Positions 5,258 to 19,221 of a stretch of 21,033 nucleotides of DNA are shown here, one piece after another. Each line of letters begins with the position of its first letter. The stretch's first letter is position 1. Made by a program: the position numbers and the translations under genes. Location: positions 1 to 21,033 of IMG/VR virus record IMGVR_UViG_3300029266_002051; one strand, 5' to 3'. This DNA is from a virus. A model generated the notes under the pieces. The model made no database searches, was not told the origin of the DNA, and saw only the letters and a program-made list of their open reading frames with translations.

Positions 5258-5836
5258 ATGAATATATTATATATCCACGGTTGGGGCAGCAAGTTTGACT
5301 CTTCCAACGATAAAGTGACGTTGTTGTCAAACTGCGGTGAAGTTTTTGGGGTCAATGTTGACTATACCAAAACCTTTGAGCAAATCAAAGAAACAGTCTA
5401 TAACGCAATGGTTGCAAATAAGATTGATTTAATCGTTGGCACCTCTATGGGTGGTTACATGGCACATAAGATGGGTACTGAATGTTCTGTTCCCTATGTT
5501 ATGATCAATCCTGCCACTGATCCTGCAACAACTCTTCAAAAGTATCTTGGTAGTGGTGTTGATTATTATAATCAAAAATACACTCTTCATGAGGATACAT
5601 TGACCTCTTTCCCACCTATGTCAGATTCAGAAAATGTTCCAGCATTACTGCTGTTAGATATGGATGATGATGTTTGTGACGCAAACAATACAAATCAAAT
5701 CTTTAAGACTAGCAAATGCGTTACCACCAATACTTGGACTAATGGTTCCCATAGGTTTGATCACATGGAAGAATCTATCCCTCTGATCAATGCATTTGAG
5801 GGTAAAAATCTTTCATATGGATTTGGTGCTAATTAG
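5258..5836 (+). CDS. Alpha/beta-hydrolase, YqiA/UPF0227-like esterase, 192 aa
   Basis: The N-terminus MNILYIHGWGS carries the oxyanion HG motif. The nucleophile elbow is GTSMGGY with S63. A likely acid is in LLLDMDDDV (D135-D138), and the catalytic His lies in GSHRFDH (165 or 169). Length and order match the small YqiA-type esterases, which hydrolyse short acyl esters. In phages its substrate is unknown; host lipid or surface ester modification are options. The start has GAGAG about 7 nt upstream. It is driven by two tandem promoters and is followed by its neighbour's own promoter, so it is a one-gene unit. Confidence 0.8.
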   Translation: MNILYIHGWGSKFDSSNDKVTLLSNCGEVFGVNVDYTKTFEQIKETVYNAMVANKIDLIVGTSMGGYMAHKMGTECSVPYVMINPATDPATTLQKYLGSGVDYYNQKYTLHEDTLTSFPPMSDSENVPALLLLDMDDDVCDANNTNQIFKTSKCVTTNTWTNGSHRFDHMEESIPLINAFEGKNLSYGFGAN

Positions 5837-8390: not shown

Positions 8391-8405
8391 TTGGAGATAA
8401 TAGTT

Positions 8406-8690
8406 ATGAATCTAGCAAGACACGCCAATAAAGTGATTAAAAATAATCCCAATATGATGATACCATATTACCTTATGGGAGCATATGCTTACTATGAAGA
8501 GTCTGACCCTATTTTCTCAGATAGTTACTTTGATAACCTAGCAAAAAACATCTTAAAAGAATGGGATAATGTGGAGCATTACCATAAACATTTGCTAGAT
8601 AGAGAGGTGCTTGAAGCAGGAAGTTATCTTGGTCAATACCCCACAATTGTAATTGACGCACTGAAACATCTCAAAAGAAAAAAGAAATAA
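8406..8690 (+). CDS. Small protein resembling the N-terminal helical subdomain of NAD+ DNA ligase, 94 aa
   Basis: The ATG at 8406 (GGAG about 9 nt upstream) was chosen over a TTG at 8391. The segment PYYLMGAYAYYEESDPIFSD followed by SYFDNLAKNILKEW recalls the YY..DDP.ISDxEYD helix pair of NAD+-dependent ligase domain Ia, but the adenylation core is absent. T4-like phages carry such stand-alone proteins with unknown role. The tail is Lys-rich (HLKRKKK). It precedes guaC by 18 nt. Confidence 0.6.
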   Translation: MNLARHANKVIKNNPNMMIPYYLMGAYAYYEESDPIFSDSYFDNLAKNILKEWDNVEHYHKHLLDREVLEAGSYLGQYPTIVIDALKHLKRKKK

Positions 8691-8708: not shown

Positions 8709-9728
8709 ATGCTAATTTATGATGATATTAAACTTGACTATTCGGACGTTCTTATTCGACCAAAACGATCAACGCTAACATCTCGATTTGAAGTTGATAT
8801 GTCAAGAAAATATGTATTCAAACACAGTGGTAAAAATTGGAAGGGTGTGCCAATTATGGCATCTAACATGGATACTGTTGGTACTTTTAATATGTCAAAA
8901 TCTTTAAGTAATTATGATATGGTTACATGCATTGCTAAACATCACAATGCCGATGGGACTTGGAAAACAATCAACGATGCTTCGATGAGTAGTAATTTGT
9001 GTGTCATGGGTGGTATCTCCGATAAAGATATGAGCAATACTCAAGAGATTTACAAATCAAGTAAAGCATTTTTTCTGGGATTAGATGTTGCTAATGGTTA
9101 CACAATTAGTTTTGTCGATGCAGTAAAAAGAATGCGAGACCTAGAACCCAACTCTACGATCATTGCTGGTAATGTTGTGAGTGCTGATATGACCCAAGAG
9201 TTAATTCTAGCGGGTGCTGATATTGTTAAAGTTGGTGTTGGACCAGGTTCTGTCTGTACAACACGAATTAAAACAGGAATTGGTATGCCACAGTTGAGCG
9301 CAGTTATTGAATGTGCCGATGCAGCGCATGGTATGGATGCTCATATCATTGCAGATGGTGGTTGCACTACTTCTGGAGATATGGTCAAAGCATTTGCTGC
9401 TGGTGCAGATTTTGTAATGATTGGTGGTATGCTTGCTGGTCATGATGAATGTGATGGTATTTTAGATAATGGCAAAATGAAATTTTATGGTATGGCGTCC
9501 GAATCTGCTATGGATCGTCACAGAGTGGGTAATAGGCAGTACCGTGGTGTTGAAGGTAAAACCGTCACAGTAGATCATAGAGGTCCAGTAGAACTAACTT
9601 TAATTGATATTCTCTCTGGTATTAGGTCTGCTTGTACTTATGTTGGTGCAAGTAAACTCAAAGATTTATCTAAATGTGCAACATTCGTAAGGGTAAATAA
9701 TACACACAATACTGTATTTAATGGTTGA
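8709..9728 (+). CDS. guaC: GMP reductase (GuaC), 339 aa
   Basis: Converts GMP to IMP with NADPH, linking guanine to adenine nucleotides. The match to bacterial GuaC runs from end to end: [11 protein letters not shown] at the start, [13 protein letters not shown], the catalytic loop [15 protein letters not shown] with Cys183 (E. coli Cys186), SDGG-type ADGGCT phosphate site, [26 protein letters not shown], and SACTYVGA near the end. At 339 aa against about 347 it lacks only small insertions and looks intact. It has no CBS domains, which separates it from IMP dehydrogenase. AAAGAGG lies about 9 nt upstream. It is last in the run starting at 6609. Confidence 0.95.
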
Positions 9729-14772: not shown

Positions 14773-15669
14773 ATGTCTTTCGCAAATCTAAAACGTAATC
14801 GCGGTCAAATTGATCGTCTTACTGCCGCAGCAACTGCCCAATCCAGCACAACAAAATCCTACGTCGATGACCGTATGTGGAAACCCACGGTTGATAAACA
14901 GAATAATGGTTATGCCGTTATTCGATTCTTGCCAGATGGTCAAGAAAGTTCTGAAGTACATTTCGTGCGTTATTGGGATCATGCCTTTAAAGGTCCAACT
15001 GGCAAATGGTATATTGAAAAGTCTCTAACTTCGATTGATCAACAAGACCCTGTCGGAGAATACAATTCGAAACTCTGGAATAGTGGTATTGAATCTGATA
15101 AGGAAACAGCACGGCGTCAAAAGCGGCGACTGCACCATGTTTCAAATATTCTGGTAGTTTCTGATCCTGGAAATCCAGATAATGAAGGCAAGATTTTCAT
15201 GTATCAATATGGTAAGAAAATCTTCGATAAACTTATGGATGCTTGGTCACCAGAGTTTGCGGATGAAACACCGATGAATCCATTTTGTATGTGGGAAGGT
15301 GCGGATTTTAAACTCAAAATTCGTGACGTTGAGGGTTATCGTAACTATGATAAATCTGAATTCTCAGCACCACGCCAAGTGTCGGAAAGTGATGAACGCC
15401 TAGAGGAAGTATACGACAAGTGTTATGATCTTTCAGAATTTACTGATGCGTCACAATATAAGTCTTATGCTGAACTCGAAACCAAGATGCGAAATGTTCT
15501 TGGTCAGACTGCACCAGAACCAACAATGGCGCAAACTGCTTCATTGGGTGAGGAAAAGGCACCAGCATTGGATGATAACATCCCAGACTATGCGCCAGCA
15601 CCTAAAGCAGAACCAGCAGGCGAAGACAATACTATGGATTACTTCGCAAGTCTAGTTAATGAAGACTAG
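14773..15669 (+). CDS. 32: gp32 single-stranded-DNA-binding protein, 298 aa
   Basis: Coats single-stranded DNA during replication and recombination and recruits replication partners. The OB-fold region matches T4 gp32 in order: NGYAVIRFLP, F-KGPTGKWYIEK, NILVVSDPGNPDNEGK, YGKKIFDK, WEGADFKLKI, NYDKSEF. The T4 zinc site (His and CxxC between KWYIE and the next helix) is missing: the region 83-97 reads KSLTSIDQQDPVGEY. The marine T4-like phages are recalled to share this. The N-terminus (residues 1-30) is the likely cooperativity domain. The tail is acidic and carries an APAPK linker before DYFASLVNED. GGAG lies about 9 nt before the start. Its stop overlaps the tape-measure stop on the other strand. 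Confidence 0.93.
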   Translation: MSFANLKRNRGQIDRLTAAATAQSSTTKSYVDDRMWKPTVDKQNNGYAVIRFLPDGQESSEVHFVRYWDHAFKGPTGKWYIEKSLTSIDQQDPVGEYNSKLWNSGIESDKETARRQKRRLHHVSNILVVSDPGNPDNEGKIFMYQYGKKIFDKLMDAWSPEFADETPMNPFCMWEGADFKLKIRDVEGYRNYDKSEFSAPRQVSESDERLEEVYDKCYDLSEFTDASQYKSYAELETKMRNVLGQTAPEPTMAQTASLGEEKAPALDDNIPDYAPAPKAEPAGEDNTMDYFASLVNED

Positions 15670-17708
15670 TCTCCATACATAGGAAATGCCCAGCGTAGCG
15701 CACTATCTGCTACGCTGGACAGACTACCACCGTTCAGCATAGTAGTGTTCTGTTGAACATTTGATGATGTAGAATTATCCATAATTACTGCGCCACCAGA
15801 TACTTTACCACTATTCGCTTTTGCCAATTTCTCAGCATCAAGAACTTCGGTTTCCAATCGATTAGACAGTTGATCGAGTCTCTGATCTGTTTCTATCCGC
15901 ATTCGTTGTGCTTCAGATTGATCGTCCTCTGTTCTGTCTAATGACCAATTCAAAAAAGTATCTCTTAGATTATTAACGCCACCTTCAAGGTCTGTACTAA
16001 AACCAATCGCGCCAGTTGCCATATCTGCTAAACTAGCAAAACTACCAGCAACACCTGAAAGCGAACCAGTAATACCTACTCCAATACTCTCAGTAAGAGT
16101 TTCTGGTTTAAATTTATTTAATGCTTCAGTAGCACCATTGATACCATCGTATGCTGCCATGCCAATCGCTAAGACTTGTCCTGCAATTGGAATTCCTCTT
16201 GCACCAGCAAGACCAATTTTTCCAAATTTAGCAAATTTACCTACGTTGGCAGACTCTGCCAGAGATAACGCACCCCCTGATATTTTACTTCCAAATTGAA
16301 CACCTTTTTTACCACCACGGTTCATATCATATAAATCGTCACCAGCACCAAACAGATTTCCAAATTTCTGGAAAATTCCTCGTTTTCCACCTCGCGCTCG
16401 ATTCTTCCCTTTACCTTTACCGTCACGATCAAGGTCGAGTCCACCGCCACTTAAAAGTTTTGATGCCAATGCCTTTGTAAGCGCAACCGTTGCAACAGTA
16501 TTTGCAGAGATTGCTAATGTCATTGCCCCTTGGATAACTGTCCCAATGAGATTGATACCAACACTTAACCCAGCAATTCCTAGTCTCAATAATTTCAGTG
16601 GACTCAGCAACCCACCCAAAGCAACGGTTAATGCGAGAATTTCTGCGATGCCAAATTCTTTACCAATAAATTCTTTTATAGTATCTCTCAATGGTCCAAG
16701 ACCTAAATCTTGTACTACACCTTCAAAAAATATTTTTGTCTCTTCCCACATGGTTTTCATACCATCAAGTGCTGTTTGAAGAGATGGAAATGCTGTAAGC
16801 ATTTGATTCACTGCTTCTTTCAAGACCCCAAAAGCACCACCTTCAGCAAAAGCACCACCGATTGATTTCAAAGCACTAGTCATTGTTTCACCAAAGAGTG
16901 GCATACCAAAAAGTTCATCTGCTTTGTTATTGATTGCATCAAGTATACTGAAACCTGGGTCTATGCCCAACTTATCCCTAAATCTTGAAACTAGAAATGC
17001 AACTGCACCACCAGCAAGAACTGTCGCTAAAATTGCTCCAGTAAAACCACCAAATCCTTGCATAATTTCGGAAACATTCGCTAGGTTTCCCAGCAGTCCA
17101 CCTTCTCTATTTCCAGACCGCGAAACACCTTTTTTGGCAAGAACTCCACCAACCTTTTTTCTATCACGTTTTTCTTCAATACCAGCAAGTTTTGCTTCTG
17201 CTTGGTTTGAAAGAAATTTAGAAAACATAGAAACTAAACTAGACATACTTTTGCCTATGTTTTTAATTTCGGATATTAATTTGGGATCAGTACCTTTACC
17301 AAAAAATTTACCAAATATATTTCCAAAGAATCCAAAAAACCCTCCAAATAACTTCTTAGTTCCTTCCCATGTTGCTTTTAGACTATCTCTTACAGATGTG
17401 AACGCTCTTATAAATGGTGATGTGAGAGTGGTGGCGAGTGCTGCGAAAGGTGCTGTAATGGCATTTGCTAGGTTTAATGTTAGCATCTTAGGCATCATTA
17501 CCAACGATCTTGCCATATCAGTAAGACTTTTTAGACCAGGAATTCGTATGCCACCGCCCATTTTTTGGACAGACTTTTCTAAATTGGTGAAACCTTTTTT
17601 GATTTCATCAAGTGTTGATTTATTCAACTCCATACTTCTGAGGTTAATATCAGCAATATCTCTGCTGTTTATTTCTCTTACCTCATTTATCGTTGTTCCA
17701 AATGCCAT
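15666..17708 (-). CDS. 29: gp29-like tape measure / tail length determinator, 680 aa
   Basis: Sets tail length and sits in the tail tube and hub. Support: position just downstream of the gp26 gene as in tail modules generally, length close to T4 gp29 (590 aa) but longer, and composition. Residues 10-50 are a charged coiled coil, then alternating hydrophobic helices (MMPKMLTLNLANAI, FFGFFGNIFGKFFG, FTGAILATVLAGGAVAFLV, and a long block near 350-415), a basic Gly-rich hinge (GKGKGKNRARGGKRG) and Ala/Gly-rich segments (GIPIAGQVLAIGMAAYDG). AGGA lies 7 nt before the start. The hydrophobic helices may form the channel in the host membrane, which is known for other tape measures. Sequence identity to T4 gp29 is not evident. 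Confidence 0.72.
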   Translation of the reverse strand: MAFGTTINEVREINSRDIADINLRSMELNKSTLDEIKKGFTNLEKSVQKMGGGIRIPGLKSLTDMARSLVMMPKMLTLNLANAITAPFAALATTLTSPFIRAFTSVRDSLKATWEGTKKLFGGFFGFFGNIFGKFFGKGTDPKLISEIKNIGKSMSSLVSMFSKFLSNQAEAKLAGIEEKRDRKKVGGVLAKKGVSRSGNREGGLLGNLANVSEIMQGFGGFTGAILATVLAGGAVAFLVSRFRDKLGIDPGFSILDAINNKADELFGMPLFGETMTSALKSIGGAFAEGGAFGVLKEAVNQMLTAFPSLQTALDGMKTMWEETKIFFEGVVQDLGLGPLRDTIKEFIGKEFGIAEILALTVALGGLLSPLKLLRLGIAGLSVGINLIGTVIQGAMTLAISANTVATVALTKALASKLLSGGGLDLDRDGKGKGKNRARGGKRGIFQKFGNLFGAGDDLYDMNRGGKKGVQFGSKISGGALSLAESANVGKFAKFGKIGLAGARGIPIAGQVLAIGMAAYDGINGATEALNKFKPETLTESIGVGITGSLSGVAGSFASLADMATGAIGFSTDLEGGVNNLRDTFLNWSLDRTEDDQSEAQRMRIETDQRLDQLSNRLETEVLDAEKLAKANSGKVSGGAVIMDNSTSSNVQQNTTMLNGGSLSSVADSALRWAFPMYGD
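15690..15718 (+). terminator. Perfect 10-bp hairpin just past the gp32 stop
   Basis: CCAGCGTAGC (15690-15699) pairs with GCTACGCTGG (15709-15718) around a 9-base loop, 21 nt after the gp32 stop. It lies inside the coding sequence of the tape measure C-terminus on the other strand (..SALRWAF..). No U-run follows, so it is more likely a block to opposing RNA polymerase, an mRNA 3'-end protector, or a factor-dependent terminator than a simple intrinsic one. Confidence 0.5.
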
Positions 17709-17723
17709 TTTTTAATCCTAGTT

Positions 17724-17912
17724 CTACTGTTGCGCTCTTGCTCTATCATTTTCTGCTTCAACATGCTGTATCAATAATGTAATGTATATTTCTCTTTCCC
17801 AAGGCATCATATTATCAAGTTCTGTTAACGAATATTTGTGATCTTGCATCAATTGGAAATTGGTCTTATAATGACTTAATAGGTTATCATGGGAAAGAGC
17901 AATTAAAAAAAA
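17724..17912 (-). CDS. Frameshift-accessed C-terminal extension of the gp26-type protein (about 60 codons)
   Basis: The frame stays open from the slippery T-run at 17912 down to TAG at 17724-17726 and reads, in part, DNLLSHYKTNFQLM, then LDNMMPWEREIYITLLIQHVEAEN. This acidic/aromatic helix pattern (PWERE.YI.LL) is like the T domain of tail assembly chaperones in many phages and like a small ORF between gp26 and the tape measure in T4-like phages. It has no ATG with a ribosome binding site at its 5' end; the only internal ATG (around residue 22) would remove a third of it. Best explained as reached by a -1 shift from gp26. If shifted, the product is a gp26-X fusion of about 295 aa. Confidence 0.55.
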   Translation of the reverse strand, partial: FFLIALSHDNLLSHYKTNFQLMQDHKYSLTELDNMMPWEREIYITLLIQHVEAENDRARAQQ

Positions 17913-18613
17913 TCATCTAATCCTTCCAACGTAAAGTTGTTTGGATGTTTACATTTCGCACAATCAAAATTTACAGTTTCAGACAACTTTGGCATAGTCT
18001 GAATCCATTCTTTTACTTTATCAAATTGTGTTGATGAAAGTGATCCGATAAAATCTTGAATTTCATCTTGACTTTCATCAGAAAGGTCAAATCTTTCGTC
18101 GGTTGTCTCCAAAACTTTCATACATTTACTAATCATTTGAAAAGTCTTTACTGTGTCGCTTGTCGTATCATCTCTATCCGCATCCATAATAGATTTAAAA
18201 TTAGGATAACCCATATGTAAGGTCATATCTTCAGTTATCGAAACTTCATTGGGTATAGCGTGTTCTGAAACTTCAACTTTTGATAGATCGATGGATACTG
18301 GGTTGTCTGCCTCACATTCCTCACATTTGATTGTAACGCTAGTGTTTTCTCCTACAGATTTTGATCTGAGTTTGAGAAACATATATTCAACATCAAAAGA
18401 AGTTAATTTGTTTTCATCAATCTCATCACCATCAACACATGCCATGATAGTATCAACAATTGCATTTACGGTTGCTTTTTTGTCTTCAGATTCCATTGCC
18501 AACATTAAGATTTTTTCTTCTTTAACAAGGTATGGTCTAAATCTGATTTTTGTCCCTGTTGATGGGACAGTCAATTCATATTTTGGTTTATCATTTAGTT
18601 TTGGTAGCGCCAT
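17903..18613 (-). CDS. 26: gp26-type baseplate hub / tail assembly chaperone protein, 236 aa
   Basis: Belongs by pattern to the T4 baseplate protein gp26 family (T4 gp26 is 208 aa): an N-terminal segment KYELTVPSTGTKIRFRPYLVKEEKILMLA, then helical stretches, and two Cys pairs, CEEC (97-100) and CAKC (218-221), that likely hold one zinc. Gene order tail-tube-like gene, this gene, short extension, tape measure is the classic order tube - chaperone (G/GT) - tape measure of contractile and long-tailed phages. GGAG lies 9 nt before the start, which shares one base with the previous stop (TAATG). It ends in DDFF at the slippery run, so a longer shifted form is expected. Confidence 0.78.
   Translation of the reverse strand: MALPKLNDKPKYELTVPSTGTKIRFRPYLVKEEKILMLAMESEDKKATVNAIVDTIMACVDGDEIDENKLTSFDVEYMFLKLRSKSVGENTSVTIKCEECEADNPVSIDLSKVEVSEHAIPNEVSITEDMTLHMGYPNFKSIMDADRDDTTSDTVKTFQMISKCMKVLETTDERFDLSDESQDEIQDFIGSLSSTQFDKVKEWIQTMPKLSETVNFDCAKCKHPNNFTLEGLDDFF
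17906..17927 (-). promoter_or_regulatory. Candidate -1 ribosomal frameshift site
   Basis: On the minus strand the zero frame reads GAT TTT TTT TAA, so T_TTT_TTT (17912-17906) is a perfect X_XXY_YYZ slippery heptamer directly before the gp26 stop. GGAAGGA (17927-17921) lies 8 nt upstream, the spacing at which a Shine-Dalgarno-like element stimulates -1 shifting in dnaX. A -1 slip continues into the 60-codon frame; a +1 slip hits a stop after five codons. Confidence 0.5.
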
Positions 18614-19221
18614 TATTTACTTCTCCAATTTGTGTATGTCAAGGATAGACTCATCTCAACAAGACCGTCGAGATCATTCTGTAATTCAATATTGTTCATT
18701 GATGTTGGAAATGCGCCCTCAAGCACACATGTGTATACTTTTTCTGATCTAGGATTACTTAGTCCACCTGGAACAACAAGAGGGTTATTGATGGGATATG
18801 TGGTTTCACTGTTTATATGGGCAAGTTGATGTATCACCACTTCTTTAGCATAACCACTACCATCTTCTCGATTACCGTACTTATAACCCAATTCATAAGT
18901 ATCGTTATTCACCGCTAAATTCATCCAACTTTCAATATATCTTTTTATATTGTAGTCGTTAGTTACATGAAATGATAAACTAATATCATCTACCACAAAT
19001 GTATTAGCAACTTTTTCTGTTACAATTCCAATTACTCTGTCTGCTGTTGAAATTGATCTTGCTGGTAATTGAACATTTTTGCAAAGTATATTTAAATCCT
19101 CACCACTTATATTCACTCCAGGAATACGTGGCAGTTCTACGTGGAAAAGGTTTGATTTTGCAATTCCTTTTCTGATGGTACTTTTGAACTTTTCTATAGT
19201 TTGTACTGGGATCGTTTGCAT
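18613..19221 (-). CDS. Tail-tube-fold protein (gp19/gp54 family), 202 aa
   Basis: The segment KSNLFHVELPRIPG near the start, LCKNVQLPARSIST, VVDDISLSFHVTNDYN, and the closing LEGAFPTSMNNIEL...VEMSLSLTYTNW are the strand and loop order of T4-type tail tube proteins (gp19) and the related tube initiator gp54. Its length lies between gp19 (163) and gp54 (320). Its place next to gp26/gp29 and across from gp48 favours a gp54-like tube initiator over the major tube protein, but this is not settled. GAGG lies about 9 nt upstream, and it shares TAATG junctions with both neighbours. Confidence 0.72.
   Translation of the reverse strand: MQTIPVQTIEKFKSTIRKGIAKSNLFHVELPRIPGVNISGEDLNILCKNVQLPARSISTADRVIGIVTEKVANTFVVDDISLSFHVTNDYNIKRYIESWMNLAVNNDTYELGYKYGNREDGSGYAKEVVIHQLAHINSETTYPINNPLVVPGGLSNPRSEKVYTCVLEGAFPTSMNNIELQNDLDGLVEMSLSLTYTNWRSK

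Follow-up and report, generated by a model that had tools for sequence, protein, structure and literature searches.

A probable -1 frameshift signal between gp26 and a gp51-type C-terminal domain in a T4-like phage

In the model for phage lambda, many short and few long forms of the tail assembly chaperone sit on the tape measure, and the tail of the long form recruits tube subunits (PMC5009743). The listed hub assembly chaperones of T4 include gp26 and gp51, the latter being required for assembly without being part of the particle (PMC3004832). The tail assembly chaperones of T4-like phages were identified by Vladimirov, Gautam and Davidson in 2022 (Virology 566:9-15), as related by two later papers (PMC10885494, PMC12846349). 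According to the first of these, Vladimirov et al. described some T4-like phages that combine a short gene with a long fusion gene (PMC10885494), and the second cites them on -1 frameshift signals of the poly-T type in the TAC-N genes of such phages (PMC12846349). As far as these accounts convey it, the view of gp26 as a tail assembly chaperone is thus not new and belongs to Vladimirov et al. (2022).

The DNA analysed here, which we call the window, is a linear fragment of 21,033 bases from a marine T4-like phage, deposited as a virus record. We propose that its gp26 is the short form of the tail assembly chaperone, and that a -1 slip on the heptamer T_TTT_TTT yields a fusion of gp26 with the following -1 frame, named X, equivalent to T4 gp51. 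Based on sequence comparisons, we put the probability of this reading at about 0.9.

The gp26 locus and its T4 homologues

On the minus strand of the window, the genes of a gp4-type head completion protein, a DNA end protector and a tail tube/gp54-type protein (18613-19221; phrog_45 'tail tube', E 1.7e-29) are followed by gp26, X and a gene coding for 680 residues. The gp26-type ORF (17903-18613, minus strand), the putative short form or TAC-N, codes for 236 residues. Its ATG is preceded by an SD-like sequence, with an anti-SD energy of -6.4 kcal/mol, and its product matches PF12322, a T4 baseplate family (E 2.7e-59), and phrog_150 (E 4.5e-60). The gene ends with GAT TTT TTT TAA; the heptamer T_TTT_TTT occupies 17906-17912 (minus strand), and the 0-frame TAA directly after it 17905-17903. 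The -1 frame X (17724-17912, minus strand), the putative TAC-C, is read only after the slip. It comprises 62 codons from the first TTT, or 60 after the slip, and stops at 17726-17724. All these elements, including the GGAAGGA 8 nt upstream of the heptamer and the start-less character of the 60-codon frame, are present in the sequence as the preliminary description of this DNA had listed them. The predicted gp26-X fusion has about 296 residues, with DDFFLIALSHDNLLSHYK as the joint peptide.

X had been taken for an unknown frame, which it is not: it represents the known C-terminus of gp51, as it matches phrog_634, the 'baseplate hub assembly catalyst' family of T4 gp51, with an E value of 4.2e-27. 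A weaker match of X, to the end of the gp26 PHROG (E 7e-07), suggests that this family includes some joined gp26-X proteins. The profile of the fusion matches T4 gp26 through the body alone (3.9e-19) and T4 gp51 through both body and X (5e-15); the two T4 proteins also match each other (E 5e-06). Judging from these matches, T4 gp26 and gp51 are paralogues, gp51 being composed of a gp26 body plus an X-type C-terminus, and the window fusion would thus correspond to gp51. In the window, which is a fragment, X is found only in the -1 frame adjoining gp26, and there is no separate in-frame long-form gene as in T4. T4 gp26 reads TTC TTT at the position of the slip site, and neither T4 gene has a T-hexamer at the junction. 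The two T4 genes are divergent, on opposite strands, which is consistent with a duplication having replaced the frameshift.

The AlphaFold2 model of gp26 has a pLDDT of 92. Among PDB folds, the HK97 tail assembly chaperone was its most probable match (2ob9_B 0.91, 2ob9_A 0.85), at an E value of 0.35 and over 64 aligned columns. The model of X (pLDDT 77.5) is all-helical. Sequence searches of the PDB with X and gp26 returned no relatives; matches of X to HIV gp41 helices in that search were taken as chance. A fold search of X among viral models gave nothing significant, the best match being a gp51-type protein (E 0.71). NCBIfam yielded no match, and neither gp26 nor X matched lambda-type chaperone families in Pfam.

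The preliminary description had X end just before the tape measure. X does end 15 nt short of the next gene (15666-17708, minus strand, with its ATG at 17708), and the identity of the latter comes from its position and from matches of its counterparts. The only match of the window protein to a tape-measure PHROG is weak (phrog_4070, E 0.03), and no phage match was found by tblastn. In relatives, the large gene following X matches tape-measure PHROGs, with E values of 3.5e-9 in Cr30 and 1.8e-5 in phiM19. Based on position and on these counterparts, the 680-residue protein is probably the tape measure. The proposal that frameshifting recasts gp26 as a tail assembly chaperone agrees with our data while lacking novelty: the chaperone reading is supported by the gp26/gp51 homology, by the PDB fold search, where the HK97 tail assembly chaperone came out as most probable (E 0.35), and by the position of the locus.

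The plus strand of the window harbours genes for an IMP dehydrogenase/GMP reductase (8709-9728; PF00478, E 2.4e-67), a candidate auxiliary metabolic gene in a T4-like phage, for a UPF0227 family protein (5258-5836; PF05728, E 4.6e-20) and for a putative 2OG-Fe(II) oxygenase (1996-2658; PF13759, E 1.6e-07). A further ORF on that strand (8391-8690) ends with LKRKKK and has the dnaX-type heptamer A_AAA_AAG two codons before its stop.

Conservation of the slip site and selection on X

By itself, a T-heptamer is unremarkable in the AT-rich window (36% GC): across the 5,945 codons of its plausible genes, X_XXY_YYZ occurs in frame 32 times. The arrangement is more than chance because it is conserved across relatives. 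In a first set of loci, X is in the -1 frame behind an in-register TTTTTT in 159 of 159 cases. In a wider set, collected by similarity to the window and to a few relatives, so that divergent lineages devoid of the signal are under-sampled, 411 of the 413 loci that hold both parts have X in the -1 frame following T_TTT_TTN. Alignment of the junction in related phages, the check suggested at the outset, thus revealed conservation of both the T-run and the -1 frame. The two exceptions are T4, with its two genes, and Pseudomonas phage Cygsa01. The same arrangement is found in the isolates P-SSM2, S-PM2, Mosig, Cr30, phiM19, RHph_I34, the KVP40-type V09 and phiAS5. These span Kyanoviridae, Pootjesviridae, Emdodecavirus and Caulobacter phage Cr30, and within Straboviridae the arrangement occurs in three lineages, represented by V09 (KVP40 type), phiAS5 and Asswx_1. 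Given its recurrence in hundreds of independent contigs and in isolates, we rejected sequencing errors as its source.

Could the T-run simply follow from AT-richness of the genome and a conserved Asp/Asn-Phe-Phe at the end of gp26, the open -1 frame being a relic? The base composition of the window and its many X_XXY_YYZ sites would favour this, and both Phe residues are conserved at the protein level. Nevertheless, synonymous alternatives are never used: the codon before the slip is xxT and the first Phe is TTT in 66 of 66 dereplicated sequences, where codon usage predicts about 29 (kinship ignored). In addition, X is selected as a protein and homologous to gp51. The comparative data already contradict this explanation, to which we give practically no credence.

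Transcriptional slippage is known to occur at homopolymer runs, and RNA polymerase could in principle slip on the T-run and generate mRNAs of altered length that give access to the -1 frame. However, the last base of the heptamer varies among 406 loci (C in 244, T in 139, A in 22 and G in one), which indicates that six T in codon phase are kept rather than a longer run. Most relatives thus have only six T followed by C, which is short for bacterial slippage. The maintenance of a codon-phased heptamer and the presence of a helix at ribosomal spacing (see below) also point to the ribosome, making polymerase slippage highly improbable.

Counts of pairwise substitutions gave pN/pS values for X of 0.215 from the slip up to the first Met and of 0.222 in the remainder. 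The other two frames have values of 1.05 and 2.3, with about seven stops each. By this measure, amino-acid selection on X begins directly after the slip site, before any ATG. In the window, the first 18 codons of X behind the slip contain no ATG, GTG or TTG. The first ATG (17849-17847, minus strand) has no SD-like sequence, its anti-SD energy being +0.5 kcal/mol. In 57 of the 66 representatives this first ATG falls at index 18 or 19 after the slip, and over 218 sequences the mean anti-SD energy before it is -0.43 kcal/mol, against -3.56 kcal/mol at gp26 starts. The claim that the -1 frame has no usable start is thus borne out.

These data bear on the possibility that X is a small protein in its own right, a short 'gp51' made by reinitiation or internal initiation after gp26. 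Most database records do annotate separate gp51 genes, for instance in P-SSM2, P-HM2 and S-PM2, and in some relatives (V09, Cr30) an ATG overlaps the gp26 stop. Nevertheless, selection is of equal strength on either side of the first Met, although the annotated starts vary among records. Together with the mean lack of an SD at the first ATG, this equality means that separate initiation cannot explain the conserved first part. A separate X, for which the window offers no start close behind the slip, would also leave unexplained why the T-run is conserved and why a helix starts at +7. We thus consider this possibility unlikely and retain frameshifting as the probable route to X.

The gp51 starts given in databases are inconsistent: that of P-HM2 is short, those of P-SSM2 and S-PM2 are longer, and the gene is absent from the S-WAM1 and Asswx_1 annotations. 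This is as expected for a C-terminal half without a start of its own. Sullivan et al. (2010) noted cyanophage gp51 genes without the first ~200 residues (PMC3037559). Many cyanophage 'gp51' genes in databases are probably misannotated C-terminal halves. Two divergent lineages devoid of the signal were seen, Cygsa01 and the Vibrio phages K448 and D532: their -1 frame is still open, but the heptamer has disappeared and the gp26 stop overlaps with an ATG (TAATG). A third route to the C-terminal part, as a separate protein made by reinitiation, is possible in these three phages.

Elements flanking the slip site

The upstream GGAAGGA (17921-17927, minus strand) is SD-like and separated from the heptamer by 8 nt. 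The AGG element is placed like the SD of dnaX, and most relatives have a purine-rich, AGG-like element at the same distance. Over 66 sequences, the anti-SD energy is -5.5 kcal/mol, compared with -4.5 kcal/mol for synonymous sequences (Wilcoxon p 2e-5). The GGAAGGA of the window alone does not differ significantly from the synonymous expectation (p 0.41). The SD stimulator proposed earlier is thus weakly supported, by the recurrent distance and by a slight excess in strength of the group as a whole.

Downstream of the heptamer, we detected a helix of 10 bp in the window, between a 5' arm CUCUUUCCCA (17890-17899, minus strand; +7 to +16 nt after the heptamer) and a 3' arm UGGGAAAGAG (17792-17801, minus strand), located inside the W-E-R-E codons of X. 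The arms enclose an 88-nt loop. In a gapless alignment of 52 representatives of the window's clade, 92.9% of the cells are standard pairs, as opposed to 39-63% when one arm is slid by 1-3 columns. Neither the covariation score nor the number of cells with two-sided changes was reached by any of 500 shuffles. Without prompting, RNAalifold returned the helix as the only consensus structure of this clade, with 8 of the 10 pairs recovered. Two-sided changes are found at two of the ten pairs, C-G to U-A in 8 and U-A to C-G in 12 of the 52 sequences; their limitation to two pairs is attributable to the location of the helix in coding sequence. The states of these pairs need at least 7 and at least 9 changes on the gp26 tree, and thus do not reflect a single inheritance, with the proviso that the helix statistics are not fully phylogeny-corrected. 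For the window alone, a 121-nt stretch folds with a z score of -2.43 and the helix at its base. When folding was restricted to the 103 nt that follow the stop, no structure appeared (z 0.29), as these do not reach the 3' arm.

We extended the analysis to 219 representatives of all clades. The pairing probability is 0.65-0.92 at +7 to +16, compared with 0.50-0.64 in synonymous shuffles, and 0.84-0.92 versus 0.53-0.63 at +8 to +12. At +1 to +6 it hardly exceeds that of the shuffles. Pairing thus rises above shuffles only from +7, leaving a 6-nt spacer between heptamer and helix (17900-17905, minus strand; alignment columns 8-13). As a rule, -1 signals have spacers of 5-9 nt (PMC7618472), and the 6-nt spacer falls within this canonical layout. 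Over the first 45 codons, the MFE z score relative to synonymous shuffles is -2.36, with 63% of sequences below -2, whereas three control windows inside gp26 gave -0.5 to -0.8 and 10-15%, an excess of about 1.6.

When the window-type helix was tested over all clades pooled, its signal was diluted; it emerged once the clades were separated. In other clades the place of the 5' arm is kept and the partners differ. P-SSM2 has 11 bp closed at +36, S-PM2 14 bp at +44, P-HM2 6 bp at +23, S-WAM1 11 bp at +60 and phiM19 10 bp at +69. The window's clade pairs with the WERE codons ~100 nt away, whereas the P-SSM2 and S-PM2 types form a local hairpin and phiM19 and S-WAM1 use other sites. We put forward, at roughly even odds, that the 5' arm of the stimulator is fixed ~6-7 nt behind the slip across T4-like phages and that its 3' partner is exchanged between clades, all within the X coding sequence. 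If true, this place-keeping, partner-changing helix would be a good natural series for the evolution of signals inside coding sequence. No description of a helix with exchanged partners was found in the papers examined, which convey Vladimirov et al. (2022) at second hand, and the downstream helix may not have been described before. Going by these comparisons, the helix, absent from the preliminary description, is a stronger candidate stimulator than the SD-like element.

The programmed -1 frameshift proposed to join gp26 to the start-less frame is thus supported by three features read in the sequences: a conserved, in-register slip site, a start-less -1 frame under selection, and a 3' helix at canonical spacing. 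In the mechanism that we infer for the production of the fusion, a minority of ribosomes, held up by the RNA helix starting 6 nt downstream and perhaps assisted by the upstream GGAAGGA, would slip back one base on T_TTT_TTT. They would continue into the -1 frame and make the gp26-X fusion, the counterpart of a protein that has a gene of its own in T4. If lambda gpG/gpGT is a guide, the tape measure would then be coated by many short and few long forms, which would recruit tube subunits. A point against the model is that U_UUU_UUU slips weakly in E. coli relative to A_AAA_AAG (PMC5009743). The locus supplies exact sequences for testing the frameshift.

Comparison with known systems

The window locus resembles lambda G/GT in having a short ORF adjoining the probable tape measure gene and a predicted long form made by a -1 shift near the 3' end. 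It differs in the larger size of gp26 (236 residues) and in the absence of Pfam matches to lambda-type chaperone families. Lambda G/GT also uses another slip heptamer. With E. coli dnaX, the locus shares the succession of an upstream SD-like element, a heptamer and a downstream helix, with a spacer of ~6 nt. However, dnaX has A_AAA_AAG instead of a T-run and a tight hairpin instead of a helix closing an 88-nt loop, and the evidence for the SD part is weak.

In phage Adele (Vandenendeviridae/Andersonviridae), the TAC locus similarly harbours a start-less -1 frame between TAC-N and the tape measure, with a conserved poly-T (PMC12846349). Its motif is GTTTTT and the phage family is different; the likeness is one of arrangement and motif. 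Lastly, the gp26 body and the gp51-type C-terminus of the window are homologous to those of T4, where they are distributed over two genes on opposite strands rather than one gene and a -1 frame. The locus indicates that frameshifting supplies both chaperone forms in marine T4-like phages and in some phages related to them, in place of the two genes used by T4.
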